Shown here piece by piece: positions 1 through 9,563 of a DNA stretch of 64,000 nt. The stretch comes from Stappia sp. BW2. GTDB lineage: Bacteria; Pseudomonadota; Alphaproteobacteria; Rhizobiales; Stappiaceae. Position 1 is the stretch's first letter, and the number at the start of each line of letters is the position of its first letter. The notes below the pieces were generated by a model, which was given only the letters and a program-made list of their open reading frames with translations, was not told the DNA's origin and searched no databases. Position numbers and translations under genes: made by a program. Location of the stretch: NCBI RefSeq assembly GCF_008107695.1, contig NZ_VIRG01000066.1:806001-870000 (forward strand). The letters run 5' to 3'.

Positions 1-2350
1 CACGGGCATAGCTGAAGCCGAGCCCCTTGGCCGAGGCCTGCATGCGGAACATGTCGACAATCTGATCCAGAAACTCGTGAATGTTGATCTCGTTGGAATA
101 GATCTGCAACCTTCCGGCTTCGATGCGCGAGATATCCAGAAGACCATCGATCAGCCCCGACAGATGCTCGGCGCTGCGCCGGATCGTGCTGACGGCAGGC
201 TTGCGGGCTTCCGGCACGCTGTCATCGTGCTCCAGCACCTGCGCATAGCCCATGACCGCGTTCAGCGGGGTTCTGAGTTCATGACTGAGACCAACCACAT
301 AACGGCTCTTGGCAAGATTGGCCGCCTCGGCATCTTCCTTCGCCTTCTGCAGGGCTGCGTCGGTGACACTGTGGGCATCGATTTCCTTTTGGAGCAGCGC
401 GTTCTGGCGCATGGATTCTTCCTCAGCGACCCGGCGCGTGTCGTGGGCCAACACCAGAAACCAGCAGGCAATGCCGACGACGATGGCGAAGACGAAGAAG
501 ATCAATAGAACCGTCTGCCCGATAATTCCGGTCGGGTCTCCCAGACGGTTCTCCGCCTGGGCGTAGATGATCCAGAGCACCAGACCGATTGCCGCATTCG
601 ACAGGACGGAGATGAGCGCGTAGCGCCCCAGCCGGGATCGCAGGAACGCCATTGCCTTTTCCGGCAGAACATGCCCCGCGACGGTGCCGACCTGATAGGA
701 CAACCGCGCCTTCGGTTTGCAGCTGTCGTGACAGCGCGCGTCGAGAGAACAGCACAGCGAACAGATTGGAGACTGATAAGCCGGGCAATAGGCCATGTCT
801 TCCGGTTCGAACGGGTTTTCGCAGATCGAGCAGGCGATGTGTTCCTTCGACTGCCAGCTCTGGCGCGGTTTGCGCGCGAGATAGAACCGTCCCCTGGTCG
901 CATAGGCGATCAGGGGCGCAGCCACGAAGGCGATGGCCATGGCGAGGAAGGTGGCCATCGCCTCGGCAGTCTCGCCGAACTCGCCAAAGTGCGCCGCAAG
1001 AGCAAACCCCGCAGCCAGAAGCATGGCCCCGGTGCCGACGGGGTTGATGTCATAAAGATGCGCGCGCTTGAACTCGATGCCCGGAGGCGACAGCCCCAGC
1101 GGCTTGTTGATGAAGAGATCCGCCGAAATGGCCGACAGCCAGGCCATTGCAATGATGGAAAAAACGCCGAGGGTTTCCTCCAGCAGCCGGTAGATGCCGA
1201 GTTCCATCAGCAGCAGGGCGATGCCAACATTGAAGACCAGCCAGACAACCCGCCCCGGATGGGAATGGGTGAGGCGCGAGAAGAAGTTCGACCAGGCGAG
1301 CGACCCGGCATAGGCGTTCATCACGTTGATCTTGAGCTGCGCCACCATTACGAAAGCTGCCATCAGCAGAAGGACCACGGTTTCGTTCGGGATCACGTAG
1401 CCAAAAGCAATGGCGTACATGCGCGACGGTTCGTCGGCATGCTGAACCGGAACACCGTGGGACAGCACAAGCACCGCCAGAAACGATCCGGCAATCATCT
1501 TGGGAGCGCCGAGAACGACCCAACCAGGCCCAGCCAGAAACAGGGCAAGCCTGTGTCTGCGCCGGGCAAAATCCTGCGCCGGCAGAAACCGGAGAAAATC
1601 CACCTGCTCACCGATCTGGGCCATCAAGGCCAGGATGACGGCAGACGCCGCACCGAAGCTGACCAGATTAATACTGTCCCAGCCGCCCACTGTGGTGCGC
1701 GGGGCCTGCGTGACCGGGTCAATGCCGGAAAAAGTCAGCCACTCGCCAACGGCCTGCCAGTCGGTGAAGGCGATGAAGACGAACGGCAGGATGTTCAGGA
1801 TGATCCAGAAAGGCTGGGTCGCGAGCTGAAAGCGGCTGATCCAGGTAATGCCGTGGGTGACCAGCGGAATGACCGCAACAGCGCTGACGACATAGCCCAG
1901 CCACAAAGGCACACCGAAGGCAAACTCCAGCGCGCTCGACATGATGGAAGCTTCAATCGCAAAGAGTATGAAGGTGAAGCTGGCATAGATCAGCGACGTG
2001 ACGGTCGACCCTATGTAGCCGAACCCGGCACCGCGGGTCAGCAGATCGATATCCACGCCGTAGCGCATGGCATAGCGGCTGATCGGCAGGCCAACGATCA
2101 ACAGAACAAGGCTGCCAACCAGAATGGCCAGGAAGGCATTGGCCGTTCCATGGGACAAGGTGATCGCCCCGCCGATGGCTTCCAGCGCCAGGAAAGAGAT
2201 CGCGCCGATGGCTGTCTGAGAGATTGCCCGAGAGGAGAAACGGCGCGCGCTCTTTGCGGTGAAGCGCAGCGCGTAGTCCTCAAGCGTCTGGTTGTTGACC
2301 CATTTGTTGTACTGACGACGAACAGGCAAGATGCGCTGGCGGGCTCTCAT
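1..2350 (-). CDS. NCS1 permease-like hybrid sensor histidine kinase (3' end outside window)
   Basis: The frame is open from ATG 2350 to the window edge, giving 783 residues with no stop. Residues about 1-480 form a many-spanning membrane domain of the purine/cytosine permease (NCS1) type. A cysteine cluster follows (C507-x2-C510, C522, C530, C533, C534, C540, C544), then one or more membrane segments (about 560-640), a short coiled coil and a HisKA domain with motif SHELRTPLN, whose phospho-acceptor is H690. The ATPase domain and any receiver lie left of the window. Transporter-kinase fusions of the CbrA type sense or couple to substrate uptake. Here the permease is NCS1, so a nucleobase, allantoin or related nitrogen compound is a reasonable ligand, but that is inference. 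The gene is two genes from the divergent urea transporter operon. The cognate response regulator is not visible. Confidence 0.9.
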   Translation of the reverse strand, partial: MRARQRILPVRRQYNKWVNNQTLEDYALRFTAKSARRFSSRAISQTAIGAISFLALEAIGGAITLSHGTANAFLAILVGSLVLLIVGLPISRYAMRYGVDIDLLTRGAGFGYIGSTVTSLIYASFTFILFAIEASIMSSALEFAFGVPLWLGYVVSAVAVIPLVTHGITWISRFQLATQPFWIILNILPFVFIAFTDWQAVGEWLTFSGIDPVTQAPRTTVGGWDSINLVSFGAASAVILALMAQIGEQVDFLRFLPAQDFARRRHRLALFLAGPGWVVLGAPKMIAGSFLAVLVLSHGVPVQHADEPSRMYAIAFGYVIPNETVVLLLMAAFVMVAQLKINVMNAYAGSLAWSNFFSRLTHSHPGRVVWLVFNVGIALLLMELGIYRLLEETLGVFSIIAMAWLSAISADLFINKPLGLSPPGIEFKRAHLYDINPVGTGAMLLAAGFALAAHFGEFGETAEAMATFLAMAIAFVAAPLIAYATRGRFYLARKPRQSWQSKEHIACSICENPFEPEDMAYCPAYQSPICSLCCSLDARCHDSCKPKARLSYQVGTVAGHVLPEKAMAFLRSRLGRYALISVLSNAAIGLVLWIIYAQAENRLGDPTGIIGQTVLLIFFVFAIVVGIACWFLVLAHDTRRVAEEESMRQNALLQKEIDAHSVTDAALQKAKEDAEAANLAKSRYVVGLSHELRTPLNAVMGYAQVLEHDDSVPEARKPAVSTIRRSAEHLSGLIDGLLDISRIEAGRLQIYSNEINIHEFLDQIVDMFRMQASAKGLGFSYAR

Positions 2351-2524: not shown

Positions 2525-3076
2525 CTATATCCGCTTGCCGGTTCTGGACAGCTTCCAATACTGGCCTGAGAGGTTGGCACAGTTGGTGAGGTGCGGCATG
2601 TTGTTGTTGGCACCGCCATTGAAGACATCCAGACACATGGATGCGCCCCGGAACTGCGTTGTCAGTCTGCTCCAACCGCCCTGACGTGTTACTTTCCAAA
2701 ACTGGCCGGAGTAGTCGGCGCATTGTGTAAGATGCACCTGATTGTTTCGCGCCCCGCCGTTGAAAACGTCCAGACACATGTTTGCCCCCCGGAACATCGT
2801 TGTCAGCTTGTAGTATCCGTCCCCGGCAGGCTGGAAACGCCAGTACTGACCGGAGAGATCGGCACACCTGGCAAGGTGGGTCATGTTGTTCTTCGCGCCG
2901 CCGTTGAAGACATCGAGACACATGTCGTCACCACGAAACTGGGTGGTGAGGCGAAAGTAATATTGAGGATCAACCGATTGTGCGACGGCAGCCGATCCGA
3001 ACGTTCCGAAACCCAGAATCCCTCCAAGAATCAAACCCAGCACAACCTTCTGAAATCGTGACTTTACCCAAAGCAT
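2525..3076 (-). CDS. Secreted ricin-type beta-trefoil lectin-like protein with three repeats
   Basis: 183 aa. An N-terminal signal peptide (about residues 1-33, ending AAVAQ) is followed by three repeats of about 44 residues. Each has the pattern LTT-x-FRG-x2-MCLDVFNGGA, then NN, HL, a conserved cysteine and SGQ(Y/F)W. Three such units and the Q-x-W ending match the ricin B (beta-trefoil) fold, which usually binds carbohydrate. The two cysteines per repeat probably form a disulfide in each lobe. The protein is small and has no attached enzyme domain, so it may be a free periplasmic or secreted binder. It sits 174 bp upstream of the NCS1-kinase gene on the same strand. The gap between them shows no clear terminator, so co-transcription is possible. 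The ligand is unknown. Confidence 0.8.
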   Translation of the reverse strand: MLWVKSRFQKVVLGLILGGILGFGTFGSAAVAQSVDPQYYFRLTTQFRGDDMCLDVFNGGAKNNMTHLARCADLSGQYWRFQPAGDGYYKLTTMFRGANMCLDVFNGGARNNQVHLTQCADYSGQFWKVTRQGGWSRLTTQFRGASMCLDVFNGGANNNMPHLTNCANLSGQYWKLSRTGKRI

Positions 3077-3621
3077 TTCGTGTCACCCAAAAATATTAAA
3101 TTGAAGATTTTCATCTGACGCGCATGTATTTTTCGACAATATACTTACCCCGGCACGCACCAGGCATTCAAATTTCCTATCAGAATTTACCAGCAACTAC
3201 CACATAAGGATTCCAGTTCGCGCAAACACCAAAGAAGTTGACCGGAATTCATTCAACAAGGGCACTGCATGAGGCCCCTCTGCACGTATTTTCACCACGG
3301 GTGCCTGACGAATTCTCCTGGATGCAGCCCTGACACGCCTACTGCAACGAACAGGCTGTTTCGGAGCGAGGTGATGTCCCGAAAGACCGCTCAGGGCGGA
3401 GGCGTTTCCTGTTCGGACCGCTGAATCAGATCTCAATCGAACTGCGTGCCAATACACGCGACTCAGGCTCGATCAGGTCCCTGTGGGTCGGGAGTTACGT
3501 CAAACGACGTATGTTGCAGTGCGTCGTTTCCGGCGCACGATCCATCCCCGACGGCGCCGCTCCTTCCGGGGCCCGCCTTGCACCGGCCGGGAACCGGTGC
3601 CGTGACCAAGGGGAAAATCAC
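3077..3621. other. Divergent intergenic region between lectin gene and urtA
   Basis: 545 bp without a convincing gene. It must hold the promoters of the lectin gene (minus) and of urtA (plus). The part next to the lectin gene is AT-rich and the part next to urtA is GC-rich. A perfect palindrome lies at 3496-3511 (listed separately). No textbook sigma-54 or NtrC site was recognised by eye. Confidence 0.5.
3496..3511. promoter_or_regulatory. Perfect palindrome upstream of urtA, candidate operator
   Basis: TACGTC-AAAC-GACGTA is a perfect 6-bp inverted repeat with a 4-bp spacer, 111 bp before the urtA start. The size and symmetry suit a dimeric regulator, but no protein is assigned. Confidence 0.35.
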
Positions 3622-4908
3622 ATGAAAAAGACATTTGCCAAACTCGCACTCGCAGGCCTGATGGCTTCCACCATTGCAGGTGGCGCGTTTGCGGAGGATG
3701 ACACCATCAAGGTCGGCATCCTGCACTCGCTGTCTGGAACGATGGCCATCTCCGAAACGACCCTCAAGGACGCCATGCTGATGCTCATCGAAGAGCAGAA
3801 CAAGAAGGGCGGCCTCCTGGGCAAGAAACTCGAAGCTGTTGTCGTCGACCCGGCTTCCGACTGGCCGCTGTTTGCTGAAAAAGCGCGCGAGCTGATCGAA
3901 GTGAACGGCGTCGATGCCGTCTTCGGTTGCTGGACGTCCGTTTCGCGCAAGTCCGTTCTGCCGGTCTTTGAAGAACTCAACTCGCTGCTATTCTATCCGG
4001 TTCAGTACGAAGGCGAAGAATCCCAGCGCAACGTCTTCTACACGGGCGCTGCACCGAACCAGCAGGCCATTCCGGCTGTCGATTACCTGATGAACGAAGA
4101 AGGCGTCGAGCGCTGGGTTCTGGCAGGCACCGATTATGTCTATCCGCGCACAACCAACAAGATCCTGGAAGCCTACCTGAAGTCCAAGGGTGTTGCCGAC
4201 GAAGACATCATGATCAACTACACGCCGTTCGGTCACTCCGACTGGCAGACGATCGTGTCCGACATCAAGACCTTCGGCTCGGCCGGCAAGAAAACCGCCG
4301 TTGTTTCCACCATCAACGGCGATGCCAACGTTCCCTTCTACAAGGAACTGGGCAACGCGGGCATCAAGGCAGAAGACATTCCTGTGGTCGCCTTCTCCGT
4401 GGGTGAAGAAGAACTGGCCGGTCTCGACACGGCACCGCTCGTCGGCCACCTTGCCGCCTGGAACTACTTCCAGTCCGCCGACACCGAAGCCAACGCAGAG
4501 TTCATCGACGCATGGCACGCCTACATCGGCGACGACAATCGCGTGACCAACGACCCCATGGAAGCTCATTTCATCGGCTTCAACATGTGGGTCGAGGCTG
4601 TCGAAAAGGCCGGCACGACCGATCCTGACGCAGTGATCGATGCAATCGTCGGCGTTTCCGTTCCGAACCTGACCGGCGGCTACTCCGCGATGATGCCGAA
4701 CCACCACATCACCAAACCGGTGCTGATCGGTGAAATCCAGGACGACGGCCAGTTCGAAACCGTCTGGGAAACCTCCGGTCTCGTCGTTGGCGATGCCTGG
4801 TCCGACTATCTGGAAGGCTCCAAGGACCTGATCTCCGATTGGCGCGCACCGCTTTCCTGCGGCAATTTCAACACCGTCACCGGCAAGTGCGGCGGTTCCG
4901 GGTCTTAA
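3622..4908 (+). CDS. urtA: Urea ABC transporter substrate-binding protein UrtA
   Basis: 428 aa periplasmic binding protein of the branched-chain amino acid/amide (HAAT) class. The Sec signal peptide ends at about AGGAFA (residues 19-24). The mature protein begins with TIKVGILHSLSGTMA and continues through the GCWTSVSRKSVLPVFE segment typical of UrtA/FmdD proteins. The frame is open further upstream, but ATG 3622 has an AAGGGG Shine-Dalgarno at good spacing and is directly followed by the signal peptide, so it is preferred. It delivers urea (possibly short amides) to the UrtBC channel. It is first in urtABCDE and is followed by strong stem-loops that could raise its level relative to the membrane genes. 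Confidence 0.95.
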   Translation: MKKTFAKLALAGLMASTIAGGAFAEDDTIKVGILHSLSGTMAISETTLKDAMLMLIEEQNKKGGLLGKKLEAVVVDPASDWPLFAEKARELIEVNGVDAVFGCWTSVSRKSVLPVFEELNSLLFYPVQYEGEESQRNVFYTGAAPNQQAIPAVDYLMNEEGVERWVLAGTDYVYPRTTNKILEAYLKSKGVADEDIMINYTPFGHSDWQTIVSDIKTFGSAGKKTAVVSTINGDANVPFYKELGNAGIKAEDIPVVAFSVGEEELAGLDTAPLVGHLAAWNYFQSADTEANAEFIDAWHAYIGDDNRVTNDPMEAHFIGFNMWVEAVEKAGTTDPDAVIDAIVGVSVPNLTGGYSAMMPNHHITKPVLIGEIQDDGQFETVWETSGLVVGDAWSDYLEGSKDLISDWRAPLSCGNFNTVTGKCGGSGS

Positions 4909-5142: not shown

Positions 5143-6774
5143 GTGGACACGATGTCCTTGATGAGATCCTTCCTACTGCTCCTCAGCCTCGCTGCCAGTC
5201 TGCTCGCCACGCCGGCTTTGGCCCAAAGTGATGCTGCGACGCTCCGTCCGCTGATCAACGAACTGGCCAAGGGCAAATATTCCGAGACGGAAAAGCAGAT
5301 CGGCGCGCTGGTCGCGACCGGCGATCCACAGGTCGCACCGGCCCTCGAAGCGCTGAGTGACGGCGACCTTTACGCGCGCAAGGCCGATGGCGAGGTCTTT
5401 ATCATCAAGAAGGCCGGTAAGGCCTACACCTTGATTGATCCGCTGACCATGGAAACAGCCGGTGAAGCTTCCAAGCGCGAGATCAAGAAGATCAAGGTCA
5501 ACAACAGCCTGCGCCGGGTGATCCGGTCCGCTCTCGGGTCCCTGACCCTGATGGCGCCCGATCCGGCGGTGCGGATGGCGGCAGCGGAAGCCATTTTCAA
5601 GGCGAAAGACCCGGACGGTATCGAGGCGCTGGATGCCGCCATTGCCGCTGAAGCGGACGACGGCGTGCGCAAGAAGATGGAAGAAGCCCGGGCTGCGGCG
5701 GTCCTGAATTCAGACATGGACGAGGCAGCAAAACTTCAGGCGGTCTCGACGCTGGGTACAATGGGCAATCGTGATGCACTGTCGCGTCTGATAGCCGTGC
5801 AATCCTCGTCCGAAGGCGCCTTGCGCGAAGCGGCGACGACGGAAATCACCAAGATCGAGAAATCCATCGCGGCCTGGGATGCCGCGCAGAACATCTGGTA
5901 CGGCCTGTCTCTTGGCTCGGTTCTCCTGCTCGCCGCCATCGGCCTTGCCATCACCTTCGGTGTCATGGGCGTCATCAACATGGCGCATGGCGAGATGGTG
6001 ATGATCGGGGCCTACGTCACCTTCGTGGTTCAGGAGTTCATTCGCTCCTCGGCGCCCGGCCTGTTCGAATATTCTCTTTTCATCGCCCTGCCGCTTGCCT
6101 TCCTCACCTCGGGACTGGTGGGCGTTGCCATCGAGCGCGGCGTCATCCGCTGGCTGTACGGTCGCCCCCTGGAAACGCTGCTTGCGACCTGGGGCATCTC
6201 GCTGGTGTTGCAGCAGGCGGTGCGCTCGATCTTCGGCCCGACCAACCGGGAAGTCGGCAATCCGGACTGGATGTCCGGCGCCTTCGAGATCGGCCAGATG
6301 ACGATCACCTATAACCGCATGTGGATCATCGTCTTCGCGATGCTGGTTTTCGCCGGATTGATGCTGGTCCTGAAGAAAACCCCGTTCGGGCTCTATACCC
6401 GTGCCGTGACGCAAAACCGGCGCATGGCGGCCTCCATGGGCATCCGGACACCGTGGATCGACGCCCTCACCTTCGGGCTCGGGTCCGGCATTGCCGGGAT
6501 CGCCGGTGTCGCGCTGTCGCAGATCGACAATGTCTCGCCGAACCTCGGCCAAGGCTACATCATCGACAGTTTCATGGTCGTGGTCTTCGGCGGTGTCGGC
6601 AACCTGTGGGGTACGCTGGTGGGCGCCATGACGCTTGGCGTGGTCAACAAGTTCCTCGAACCCTATGCAGGAGCCGTGCTCGGCAAGATCTTCGTGCTCG
6701 TCTTTATCATTCTCTTTATCCAGAAGCGTCCAAGGGGGCTGTTCGCCCTCAAGGGCCGGGCAGTTGAAGCATGA
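5143..6774 (+). CDS. urtB: Urea ABC transporter permease UrtB
   Basis: 543 aa from GTG 5143. ATG codons at 5152 and 5161 are equally possible starts, since the signal peptide (MRSFLLLLSLAASLLATPALA) begins at 5161. The domain order is that of UrtB: cleavable signal, a periplasmic alpha-helical extension of about 220 residues, then a LivH-type permease domain with about 8-9 membrane segments from residue 250 onwards (motif GVMGVINMAHGEMVMIGAY and the later GGVGNLWGT). The long extension distinguishes UrtB from ordinary LivH. It pairs with UrtC to form the channel in the inner membrane. The stop codon overlaps the urtC start (ATGA). Confidence 0.95.
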   Translation: MDTMSLMRSFLLLLSLAASLLATPALAQSDAATLRPLINELAKGKYSETEKQIGALVATGDPQVAPALEALSDGDLYARKADGEVFIIKKAGKAYTLIDPLTMETAGEASKREIKKIKVNNSLRRVIRSALGSLTLMAPDPAVRMAAAEAIFKAKDPDGIEALDAAIAAEADDGVRKKMEEARAAAVLNSDMDEAAKLQAVSTLGTMGNRDALSRLIAVQSSSEGALREAATTEITKIEKSIAAWDAAQNIWYGLSLGSVLLLAAIGLAITFGVMGVINMAHGEMVMIGAYVTFVVQEFIRSSAPGLFEYSLFIALPLAFLTSGLVGVAIERGVIRWLYGRPLETLLATWGISLVLQQAVRSIFGPTNREVGNPDWMSGAFEIGQMTITYNRMWIIVFAMLVFAGLMLVLKKTPFGLYTRAVTQNRRMAASMGIRTPWIDALTFGLGSGIAGIAGVALSQIDNVSPNLGQGYIIDSFMVVVFGGVGNLWGTLVGAMTLGVVNKFLEPYAGAVLGKIFVLVFIILFIQKRPRGLFALKGRAVEA

Positions 6775-8009
6775 TGTCCTCCTTTCTCTTCCGCGCCATG
6801 GATGCCCGAGCGGGGCTCTTCCTCGCCATCATGGCAGCCGTGATTATCCTGGTGCCAGCCTGCAATCTGCTCCTGCCCGAGGGGTCTACCTTTCACGTGC
6901 CGAACTATGCGGTCACGCTGATGGGCAAATATCTGACCTACGCCCTGCTGGCGTTGGCAGTGGATCTGGTGTGGGGCTATTGCGGCATTCTCTCGCTCGG
7001 TCACGCAGCCTTCTTCGCGCTCGGCGGCTATGCCATGGGCATGTATCTGATGCGCCAGATCGGCACCCGCGGCGTCTATGGCGACCCGATCCTGCCGGAT
7101 TTTATGGTGTTCCTGAACTGGGGTGAATTGCCCTGGTACTGGTACGGCTTCGACATGTTCTGGTTTGCAGCGCTTATGGTGCTGCTGGTGCCGGGCGTGC
7201 TGGCCTTCGTCTTCGGCTGGTTCGCCTTCCGCTCCCGCGTGACCGGCGTCTACCTGTCGATCATCACTCAGGCCCTCACCTATGCGCTGCTGCTTGCCTT
7301 CTTCCGCAATGACATGGGCTTCGGCGGCAACAACGGCCTGACCGATTTCAAGGACATTCTCGGCTTCGATATTCAAGCCGACACGACCCGTGCCGGCCTG
7401 TTTGCAGCCTCAGGCCTGGCACTGGTCCTGTGTTTCCTCATCTGCCGGGCGATCACCCGATCGAAACTTGGCAAGGTGCTGGTGGCCGTGCGCGATGCGG
7501 AGAGCCGGACGCGCTTCCTGGGCTATCGTGTGGAACACTACAAGCTGTTCGTCTGGACCCTGTCCGCCATGATGGCCGGTATTGCCGGTGCACTTTATGT
7601 ACCGCAGGTCGGGATTATCAACCCGGGTGAATTTGCGCCTGCGAACTCCATCGAGGTGGTGATCTGGGTCGCGGTCGGCGGACGCGGAACACTGGTTGGC
7701 GCCGTGCTCGGCGCCGTGCTGGTCAACTTCGCCAAAACCTGGTTCACCGCCGCCCTGCCCGATATCTGGCTGTTTGCTCTTGGTGGCCTCTTCGTGGTCG
7801 TGACCCTGTTCCTGCCGAAAGGCATCGTCGGCATCGTTTCCCAGGGCTGGACAGCCTTGCGGCAACGCAAGATCTCCGAAGATTACGAGGCAGGGTCGGA
7901 CGAGCCACCAAGCCAGGCACCGCAGTCGCCCGCCTCACCGGCCAATGTCAGCCCGAAGACATCCTCTTCGACCCTGCCGGCGGATGCCGAGCCCCAACCT
8001 GCGGAGTAA
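6771..8009 (+). CDS. urtC: Urea ABC transporter permease UrtC
   Basis: 412 aa LivM-type inner-membrane permease. It has about nine to ten membrane segments and the motifs VWGYCGILSLGHAAFFALGGY and WVAVGGRGTLVGAVLGA. ATG 6771 overlaps the urtB stop by 4 bp, and a second ATG at 6774 is also possible. The C-terminal 45 residues are hydrophilic and rich in Pro, Ser and Ala, which is a variable tail in this family. It is translationally coupled to urtB and followed 4 bp later by urtD. Confidence 0.95.
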   Translation: MMSSFLFRAMDARAGLFLAIMAAVIILVPACNLLLPEGSTFHVPNYAVTLMGKYLTYALLALAVDLVWGYCGILSLGHAAFFALGGYAMGMYLMRQIGTRGVYGDPILPDFMVFLNWGELPWYWYGFDMFWFAALMVLLVPGVLAFVFGWFAFRSRVTGVYLSIITQALTYALLLAFFRNDMGFGGNNGLTDFKDILGFDIQADTTRAGLFAASGLALVLCFLICRAITRSKLGKVLVAVRDAESRTRFLGYRVEHYKLFVWTLSAMMAGIAGALYVPQVGIINPGEFAPANSIEVVIWVAVGGRGTLVGAVLGAVLVNFAKTWFTAALPDIWLFALGGLFVVVTLFLPKGIVGIVSQGWTALRQRKISEDYEAGSDEPPSQAPQSPASPANVSPKTSSSTLPADAEPQPAE

Positions 8010-8013
8010 AGCA

Positions 8014-8760
8014 ATGGCACGATCTTCCAGTCTTCTTTATCTCGACGGCGTGTCGGTCTCCTTCGACGGCTTCAAGGCGCTGAACGAATTGTCGTTGACG
8101 ATTGCCCCAGGCGAAATGCGGGCCATCATCGGCCCCAATGGTGCGGGCAAGACCACGATGATGGACGTCATCACCGGCAAGACCCGGCCGGACAGCGGCG
8201 AGGTGTTTTTCAACGGAACGGTCGACCTGACGGGCGAAGATGAAGCCTCGATCGCCGAGCTTGGCATCGGCCGTAAATTTCAAAAACCCACCGTCTTTGA
8301 AAGCCACACCGTCTGGGACAACCTGGAACTGGCACTGAAAGCGCCGCGTGGGCCGTTCGCGACCCTGTTCCACGTCATTTCCGGAGCTGAAAAGAAACAG
8401 GTCGACCATCTGCTCGACCTGATCCGGCTCGGTTCCAAGAGGAACGAGCTTGCAGCCAACCTGAGCCACGGCCAGAAGCAATGGCTGGAAATCGGCATGC
8501 TGCTGGCACAGGACCCGAAGCTCCTTCTCGTAGACGAACCTGCCGCCGGCATGACGGATGCAGAAACCGCTGAAACCGCTGAACTCCTGAAGGATATCGC
8601 CAATGATCACTCGGTCGTCGTGGTCGAACACGACATGGTGTTTGTGCGCTCCCTGGGCGTCAAAGTCACTGTTCTGCATGAAGGCTCCGTCCTGGCTGAG
8701 GGTTCCCTCGACCATGTCTCAGCCAACGAACGTGTCGTGGAAGTTTATCTCGGACGATGA
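8014..8760 (+). CDS. urtD: Urea ABC transporter ATP-binding protein UrtD
   Basis: 248 aa LivG-type ATPase. Walker A is GPNGAGKT (residues 40-47), the signature is LSHGQKQWLEIG, Walker B is LLLVDEPAAGM and the H-loop is VVEHDM. The start ATG 8014 lies 4 bp after the urtC stop with GCGGAG as ribosome-binding site, although the frame is open upstream. The signature LSHGQ (instead of LSGGQ) and the short YLGR C-terminus are usual for UrtD. It powers urea import together with UrtE. Confidence 0.95.
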   Translation: MARSSSLLYLDGVSVSFDGFKALNELSLTIAPGEMRAIIGPNGAGKTTMMDVITGKTRPDSGEVFFNGTVDLTGEDEASIAELGIGRKFQKPTVFESHTVWDNLELALKAPRGPFATLFHVISGAEKKQVDHLLDLIRLGSKRNELAANLSHGQKQWLEIGMLLAQDPKLLLVDEPAAGMTDAETAETAELLKDIANDHSVVVVEHDMVFVRSLGVKVTVLHEGSVLAEGSLDHVSANERVVEVYLGR

Positions 8761-8867
8761 GGGCTAGTCTTTGTCCGTTGTCGTTTCGGTTGGTGCCGCA
8801 TCGATGACGGAAGCTAACGAAGCAAAGTGCTCCAGCCGTATTGAGATCAGCGAAGGGAAGGCAGCCC

Positions 8868-9563
8868 ATGCTGCAAGTTGAAAACATCGATCTTCACTAT
8901 GGCGCCGCCCAGGCGCTGAAGAAGGTTTCACTAAAAGCCGAGACAGGCAAGGTAACCTGCCTAATGGGACGCAATGGCGTCGGCAAGACCTCCACCTTGC
9001 GCGCGGTTGCCGGGCAACACGGCATCAGCGCCGGCAAGATCCTGTGGGACGGCGAGGATATCTCCTCGTTAGCCGCCCACGCCCGCGCAAAGAAGGGCAT
9101 TGCCATCGTGCCGCAGGGACGCGAGATTTTTCCCCTCCTGTCGGTGAAGGAAAACCTTGAGACCGGCTACGCGCCGATCCCGCGCAAGGACCGTTTCATT
9201 CCCGACACGATCTTCGAGCTTTTCCCGGTGCTGAACGACATGCTGTCCCGCCGGGGCGGTGACCTGTCCGGCGGGCAGCAGCAACAGCTTGCCATTGCCC
9301 GGGCCCTTGTCACCCGCCCGAAGCTTCTGGTCCTGGACGAGCCGACGGAAGGCATCCAGCCTTCCATCATCAAGGATATCGGCCGGGCCATTTCCTGGCT
9401 GCGCGATCAGGGCACCATGGCCATTGTGCTGGTGGAACAATACTTCGAGTTTGCGCGTGATCTGGCGGATGATTATGCCGTGATGGATCGGGGTGAAGTG
9501 GTGCTTTCCGGCACCGGGGCGGATCTGTCGGAAAGCGAGGTCCGGCGGTATCTGACGATATAA
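8868..9563 (+). CDS. urtE: Urea ABC transporter ATP-binding protein UrtE
   Basis: 231 aa LivF-type ATPase. Walker A is GRNGVGKT (34-41), the signature LSGGQQQQLAIARAL and Walker B LLVLDEPTEG. The ATG 8868 start is preferred over 8841 because GAAGGGAAGG stands just before it and homologues begin MLQVEN. The 107-bp spacer after urtD is larger than the other gaps in the operon but shows no terminator. No urease gene follows within the window, so the urease locus must be elsewhere. Confidence 0.95.
   Translation: MLQVENIDLHYGAAQALKKVSLKAETGKVTCLMGRNGVGKTSTLRAVAGQHGISAGKILWDGEDISSLAAHARAKKGIAIVPQGREIFPLLSVKENLETGYAPIPRKDRFIPDTIFELFPVLNDMLSRRGGDLSGGQQQQLAIARALVTRPKLLVLDEPTEGIQPSIIKDIGRAISWLRDQGTMAIVLVEQYFEFARDLADDYAVMDRGEVVLSGTGADLSESEVRRYLTI

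Follow-up and report, generated by a model that had tools for sequence, protein, structure and literature searches.

A hybrid histidine kinase with an NCS1-type membrane domain beside urtABCDE: a candidate sensor of urea and small amides

Introduction

In the 64,000-nucleotide stretch of Stappia sp. BW2 DNA analysed here (the window; G000:C28:806001-870000), a histidine kinase gene with a permease-like membrane region stands beside a divergent urea transporter operon, which raises the question of what the kinase senses and which genes it controls. Fusions of this general kind are known: in CrbS/CrbR, MxtR/ErdR and CbrA/CbrB an SSS-family permease is fused to a histidine kinase, and in the first two of these systems the kinase is a hybrid one whose partner is a LuxR-type regulator. 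The reading favoured for the window, with a probability of roughly two in three, is a two-component system that governs the uptake and breakdown of urea or small amides and detects these compounds through a domain descended from a permease. Taking up urea or formamide is a common way of scavenging nitrogen, and the locus offers a case in which to test whether a transporter fold has become a receptor.

Results

The reading frame of the kinase runs on the minus strand from position 2350 off the left edge of the window, with 783 residues inside it (Table 1). The complete kinase has 1129 residues in the genome (locus L004, 8961-12350; loci are numbered L and genomes G), and its parts follow the order NCS1-fold membrane domain, eight cysteines, two membrane helices, HisKA, HATPase and receiver. 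Pfam matches HisKA at residues 681-746, HATPase_c at 793-902 and Response_reg at 928-1037, and these domains, together with the catalytic residues, identify the protein as a hybrid histidine kinase. A gene for a 309-residue regulator with Response_reg and GerE domains and the phospho-acceptor Asp (L004:8057-8986, outside the window), a response regulator of the LuxR/NarL type, overlaps the end of the kinase gene. The same genome holds a second copy of the kinase (L005), which adjoins urtEDCBA-fmdA; a GerE regulator with no recognised receiver (L005:14652-15359) follows this second kinase-regulator pair.

Table 1. Features of the locus, in window coordinates
Feature	Position	Strand	Basis or remark
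Hybrid histidine kinase, residues 1-783 of 1129	1..2350	-	remainder left of the window
HisKA dimerisation/phosphoacceptor domain, residues 681-746, His690	113..310	-	Pfam and conservation
Two further membrane helices, approximately residues 574-640, linking to the kinase core	431..631	-	hydropathy
Cluster of eight cysteines (C507-C544), probably a site for two metals	719..832	-	conservation
NCS1-like membrane sensor domain, residues 28-491, about 12 helices	878..2269	-	fold, profile, hydropathy
Predicted operator TACGTCAAACGACGTA	3496..3511		centre about 118 bp 5' of the urtA start (3622)
urtA, urea ABC transporter binding protein	3622..4908	+	start inferred from signal peptide; longest ORF from 3511
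urtB, with N-terminal HEAT-like extension	5143..6774	+	
urtC	6771..8009	+	NCBIfam
urtD (longest ORF; family match from residue 30)	7945..8760	+	NCBIfam
urtE (longest ORF; family match from residue 11)	8841..9563	+	NCBIfam

The divergent operon is urtABCDE, with all five products above the cut-offs of the NCBIfam models UrtA to UrtE. Between the kinase and urtA, an ORF on the minus strand (2525-3076) encodes a Ricin-B-type lectin (PF00652) with a signal-peptide-like start. The loci of the best 80 of at least 568 relatives show no listed match to this lectin ORF, which may therefore be an insertion in this lineage.

Conservation was followed in two sets. A phylum sample of 398 genomes contains 64 with any match, and 52 of them, the window genome included, hold 58 kinases, defined as full or near-full matches below E 1e-150; this threshold excludes the weaker matches, which are stand-alone permeases plus a fragment of 50 residues in G236. 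The second set comprises the best 80 of at least 568 relatives and leans to Hyphomicrobiales because only the best 80 were kept. His690 is kept in 58 of 58 phylum-sample kinases and in 80 of the best 80 relatives (of at least 568), and the receiver Asp976 in 56 of 58 and 80 of 80, respectively; the two exceptions are non-hybrid. These non-hybrid members (L165:9058-11715 and L169:9076-11760; 885-894 residues) possess the same membrane and cysteine parts and lie near fmdA, and an OmpR-type regulator adjoins the one at L165. A REC-GerE gene lies within 100 nt of the kinase in 55 of 58 loci of the phylum sample and in all of the best 80 relatives (of at least 568), and the phospho-Asp is present in 131 of 131 regulators extracted.

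Hydropathy places approximately 12 plus 2 membrane helices in the protein, with the cysteine cluster between them (overlapping peaks merged by eye). Pfam gave no match to kinase residues 1-649 even at E <= 10, and PF02133 in particular had no match at this threshold in the N-terminal part of either kinase of the genome. As Pfam is silent on the membrane part, an NCS1 label needed other tests. Alignment with hhalign of kinase-domain profiles against profiles containing E. coli CodB gave E-values of 1.5e-11 and 3.1e-21, and a stand-alone homologue of 497 residues (L173:9948-11441) matches the kinase membrane domain at E 7.6e-32 and is itself a member of PF02133 (36.4 bits; cut-off 23.5). For two more stand-alone relatives, L174 and L175, Pfam found nothing at E 0.001. 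The L173 protein, a candidate amide or urea permease, is encoded near a protein 28% identical to UrtA (12915).

An AlphaFold model of the sensor domain, built on an alignment of 64 sequences (the window kinase and 63 of the 80 relatives), is of middling confidence (mean pLDDT 67, pTM 0.56). A Foldseek search with this model returned Mhp1 and CodB as its three best rows, and a structure ranking of the same pLDDT 67 model placed CodB at Z 25.6, Mhp1 at Z 22.6 and the next family at 20.8 among the PDB chains listed. SSS-type folds ranked below NCS1 with the pLDDT 67 model, and Pfam gave no SSS match. Sequence searches of the PDB returned no NCS1 chain among the rows listed (60 of 215, 60 of 71 and 1 of 1). 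The sensor domain is NCS1 by descent and fold, outside Pfam membership. The initial annotation had proposed an NCS1 permease fused to a histidine kinase, which the profile match, the PF02133-positive intermediate and the structure ranking bear out; it had also suggested that extending the contig to the left would uncover the rest of the system, and the HATPase, the receiver and the REC-LuxR partner regulator were found there.

The tripeptide Lys340-Ile341-Asn342 aligns with Thr278-Thr279-Asn280 of CodB in three alignments that share sequences, so that Lys340-Ile341 stands in place of the Thr278-Thr279 pair, which, with its Mhp1 counterpart, we take to be the TM8 sodium site. Lys340 is invariant in the phylum sample (58/58) and among the best 80 of at least 568 relatives (80/80). 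The position is occupied by Arg in the three stand-alone relatives examined (L173, L174 and L175), and a basic residue alone therefore does not exclude transport; four of the eight other NCS1 proteins aligned have Gly at the first position, that of CodB Thr278.

Positions that might separate urea-type from amide-type kinases were sought, but a null made of other clade sets was not clearly exceeded. There are two 4-of-4 columns against a null mean of 0.44, and at least one such column occurs in 39 of 126 null clade sets, or in 10 of 70 without the non-hybrid clade. Position 406 is Gly in 36 of 38 amide-type kinases and mostly Ser, Cys, Met or Thr in the urea type. Given this null, the shifting residues do not mark out a binding pocket.

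The eight cysteines (507, 510, 522, 530, 533, 534, 540 and 544) are invariant in all 138 homologues, comprising the 58 of the phylum sample and the best 80 of at least 568 relatives. Folded alone, the cysteine domain reached a pLDDT of 73.6, and a fold search with it against the PDB gave nothing significant; the top rows were RING and PHD fingers, the best being a RING finger at E 0.47. Without a significant PDB match, 'zinc finger' remains a guess for this module.

Gene neighbourhoods were compared in stretches of mostly about 8 kb on each side of the kinase. In the phylum sample, 56 of 58 kinases lie near urt, amidase or urease genes within the fetched stretch: 36 loci have urt of the second type with an amidase, seven urt of the first type with urease, six urt of the first type alone, four urease alone, one urt of the second type with urease, and two, both with non-hybrid kinases, amidase alone. 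The two kinases with no such neighbours (L130 and L176) lie at contig ends that leave 363 and 0 bases upstream. Among the best 80 of at least 568 relatives, urt genes are near the kinase in 77, with none in the fetched stretch of L052, L097 and L110. The genes that recur beside the kinase encode the urea ABC transporter, formamidase, aliphatic amidase and urease, a set of partners suggesting that the signal is urea and short amides; fmdA or amiE occurs at 38 of 58 loci. A Pfam check was made on a single representative of each of the following: urease, UreD, UreF, UreG, UreJ, CN_hydrolase and the zinc ribbon resembling FmdB. The model TIGR03407 was found in 255 of 398 genomes, above its cut-off in 135, and so urtA is commoner than the kinase.

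The initial annotation had tied the kinase to urea uptake and had made this link depend on a consistent urt neighbourhood among homologues; such a neighbourhood exists, and the link stands. Its further idea, that a nucleobase-type sensor responds to purine breakdown, found no support. Purine or pyrimidine breakdown genes were seen neither in 30 recurrent neighbour clusters (10 representatives scanned with Pfam, the rest read by eye) nor among the most frequent families (25 of 62 and 25 of 173) listed by two scans that covered 83 of the 327 unassigned neighbour ORFs with at least 200 residues. The purine link was rejected for the part of the neighbourhood scanned. Nearest to purine genes is a presumed methylthioadenosine phosphorylase, read by eye in three loci of one clade; in these loci (L127, L130 and L132) an IF-2B family gene, probably mtnA, likewise recurs near the kinase. 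In three further loci, proteins of 312-396 residues lie between urtA and the kinase (L148:7100-8038, L149:12133-13254 and L238:7262-8452). Those of L148 and L149 look secreted and that of L238 has no Pfam match; the proteins could be outer-membrane porins of the FmdC kind.

A tree of sensor domains was built from 70 of the 138 kinases by a quick search with SH-aLRT support only. The amide and urea labels require four changes on it, at least three of which are forced by well-supported branches, and the labels cluster far more than shuffled ones, a result to which near-copies contribute. Plasmid records contain a homologue at E 1e-100 in 506 of 72,556, and 338 of the 506 are from Klebsiella. In one Klebsiella plasmid examined (L178), amiF-urtEDCBA is followed by a divergent kinase and regulator, and TACGTCATTTAACGTA lies between urtA and the kinase (L178:13879). 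On a pSymB of S. meliloti, the kinase and regulator precede C4-dicarboxylate genes and urtA is about 8 kb away. A scan of viral contigs gave one locus only, matching just the kinase/receiver part.

The urtA promoters of kinase-linked systems carry a palindrome of the TACGTCAATTGACGTA type. The 6.44 Mb genome has a single copy of TACGTC-N4-GACGTA, at window position 3496-3511, and none of the reversed control pattern. This site is also the single exact copy of TACG-N8-CGTA in the window; with up to one mismatch the looser pattern is no commoner than expected (7 copies against a shuffle mean of 7.5). Across loci, the palindrome core was found upstream of 36 of 47 kinase-linked urtA genes in the phylum sample and 77 of 77 among the best 80 of at least 568 relatives; 5 of the 11 genes lacking it have a variant scoring at least 15. 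By comparison, the palindrome was present at 0 of 20 urtA genes of kinase-free genomes and 3 of 20 unlinked urtA genes of kinase-bearing genomes, both control sets being hand-picked from a listing rather than drawn at random, and in 115 of 2760 stretches of 851 bp taken at random from the loci with the true sites left in place. Among non-redundant loci, an exact-dyad search upstream of the kinase itself found TACG-N8-CGTA at 21 of the 29 of amide type and 19 of the 44 of urea type, where the commonest dyad across ten shuffles reached at most 8 and 7, respectively.

A matrix made from 48 distinct sites yielded 55 sites scoring at least 13 in 56 loci, 54 of them close to a called start, be it that of urtA, the kinase or fmdA; the exception, at L162, falls inside an ORF called too long, ahead of the part that matches the urtA family. 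At eight loci fmdA has a site of its own (L134, L140, L141, L143, L146, L147, L151 and L152). The longer form TACGTCA-N2-TGACGTA has nine perfect copies in the 398 genomes, against one for its reversed control. Seven are at kinase/urt loci (G196, G170, G142, G387, G054, G356 and G146) and two in genomes with no kinase match (G342 and G240). As 14 fixed bases are estimated to predict a handful of copies by chance, the weight rests on the location of the seven.

Thirteen of the 56 loci have no matrix site, and for six of these the genome's urtA, beyond the fetched stretch, has a site or variant. At the distant urtA of urease-linked kinases with no urt nearby, variants score 20.0 in G389, 14.2 in G379, 10.8 in G225 and 10.4 in G019. 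Scores near 10 are weak, given 11.0 for one control region (L225) and a maximum of 9.4 over 60 shuffled regions. Sites at urtA genes about 10-11 kb from the kinase score 22.5 in G158 and 30.8 in G142. The G225 and G019 variants are TACGCC/GGCGTA inverted repeats. A second kinase is present in G225, G379 and G158, with its own standard site in G225 and G379. Two of the three unlinked control matches (L211 and L214) are the urtA genes of G389 and G225, which could make them members of the regulon; the third (L228) resembles a chance match. No palindrome site was found in L144, L149 and L153, or in 5.3 kb around urt in G360, to which L155 belongs; in L141 the palindrome is at fmdA only, and in L148 at the kinase only. 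The second system of the window genome (L005, urt-fmdA) has no such palindrome. Its kinase/urt-fmdA intergenic region (L005:9499-9871) lacks the TACG palindrome and contains other dyads such as TGATCGGTGTTTACCGATCA, possibly an insulated operator.

At one recognition-helix position of the regulator, 69 of 76 proteins paired with a TACGT operator have Asn and the others Thr, and 11 of 15 paired with a TACGC operator have Asp or Thr. The recognition helix may thus shift with the operator variant; this covariation is only a hint, because the rows are related.

Discussion

The favoured reading can be set out as a chain of proposed steps. The kinase and its adjacent REC-LuxR regulator (L004:8057-8986) would form a two-component system for scavenging urea and short amides. 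The NCS1-fold domain would act as a receptor rather than a sodium symporter. Urea or a short amide (formamide, acetamide), bound from the periplasm, would alter the state of the HisKA/HATPase core, with the cysteine module and the two additional helices as the connection. Phosphate would pass from His690, possibly via Asp976 of the kinase's own receiver, to the LuxR-type regulator; this regulator is predicted to bind the 16-bp palindrome at 3496-3511 and to switch on urtABCDE. In the amide subtype, the regulator may act also on fmdA and often on the kinase gene.

Other readings start from the same fold or the same neighbours. CodB and Mhp1 are matched over nearly the whole length of the domain and CbrA-type SSS-kinases with transport activity are known, both of which would suit a working urea or amide permease that is also a sensor in one protein; the Lys that all 138 sequences (80 of them the best of at least 568 relatives) have where the sodium site is presumed to lie, and the dedicated ABC transporter usually next door make this unlikely. 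The fold is also that of nucleobase and hydantoin carriers, so the domain might sense a nucleobase, hydantoin or other purine-breakdown product, with urt indirectly recovering purine-derived urea. This is very improbable, however, as the examined part of the neighbourhood holds no purine or pyrimidine breakdown genes and as purine breakdown would leave fmdA or amiE at 38 of 58 loci unexplained.

Some sensors dock ABC transporters, and the kinase and urt genes co-occur, mostly as divergent neighbours, which would be expected if the NCS1 domain read the transporter's state by docking the UrtA-ligand complex or the UrtBC permease. Such docking is distinctly unlikely, given the four urease-only and two amidase-only loci with no urt in the fetched stretch and a deep conservation that sits in the membrane helices of the permease fold. 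Least probable of the readings weighed is that some other regulator uses the palindrome, which would then simply go along with this urt type. Kinase loci that lack the palindrome, including the L005 paralogue, would agree with it, but the palindrome is absent at 20 of 20 hand-picked urtA genes of kinase-free genomes, is found also at fmdA, and has variants that track recognition-helix changes in the neighbouring regulator. A direct sensor of urea or small amides is the preferred reading. Evenly poised between right and wrong is a broader proposal, that a receptor family derived from NCS1 permeases, having lost the sodium site and gained a metal-binding cysteine module and a hybrid kinase, senses urea and small amides directly, with a shared palindromic regulon (urt, fmdA and the kinase), repeated switches between amide and urea, and carriage on many Klebsiella plasmids.

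If correct, this provides a candidate sensor, regulator and operator for S. meliloti, other rhizobia and Roseibium, and a plasmid-borne one in Klebsiella, where the plasmid copies would adjoin an uptake cluster proposed by others to aid growth in the urinary tract. The predicted operator makes the regulatory claim directly testable. In the open-access literature covered, with subscription papers mostly outside its scope, no urea- or amide-responsive two-component system was found assigned to urtABCDE. For Pseudomonas, the excerpted text of PMC13209695 suggests that urtABCDE with a formamidase imports formamide. The genes treated in PMC2651895 appear in the excerpts of PMC2912261 as 'branched-chain amino-acid transport' and are lowered in a tolC mutant. 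In S. meliloti, the excerpts of PMC12542648 give SMb20609 as 'Histidine kinase' and SMb20610 as 'Putative two-component response regulator protein'; they describe SMb20609 as bound and regulated directly by PhaR and functionally uncharacterised, and state no urea link for either gene. Going by numbering and neighbours, the two are probably the pSymB homologues described above, orthologues of the window kinase and regulator.

The 'UTS' cluster of Klebsiella CG307 (UrtABC/AmiF) is described in the excerpted text of PMC13060141 as a transporter with a formamidase; the terms 'histidine kinase', 'two-component' and 'response regulator' have 0 occurrences in that text, which gives UTS no regulator. 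We infer that the Klebsiella plasmid urtABCDE-amiF locus is this cluster; the plasmid locus stands beside homologues of the kinase and regulator, with a palindrome site between urtA and the kinase. Like Mhp1 (HyuP) and CodB, the sensor domain has the NCS1 fold (VIA-align Z 22.6 and 25.6) and a profile match to the CodB set; unlike them, it is fused to a kinase, has Lys340 in place of CodB Thr278 and lies below PF02133 detection. As in CrbS/CrbR, MxtR/ErdR and CbrA/CbrB, a permease-fold membrane domain replaces the usual sensor, whereas the window kinase, unlike CrbS, MxtR and CbrA, appears to be of the NCS1 rather than the SSS family, possesses an eight-cysteine module, has urt, fmd and urease genes as neighbours, and is accompanied by a palindrome of its own.
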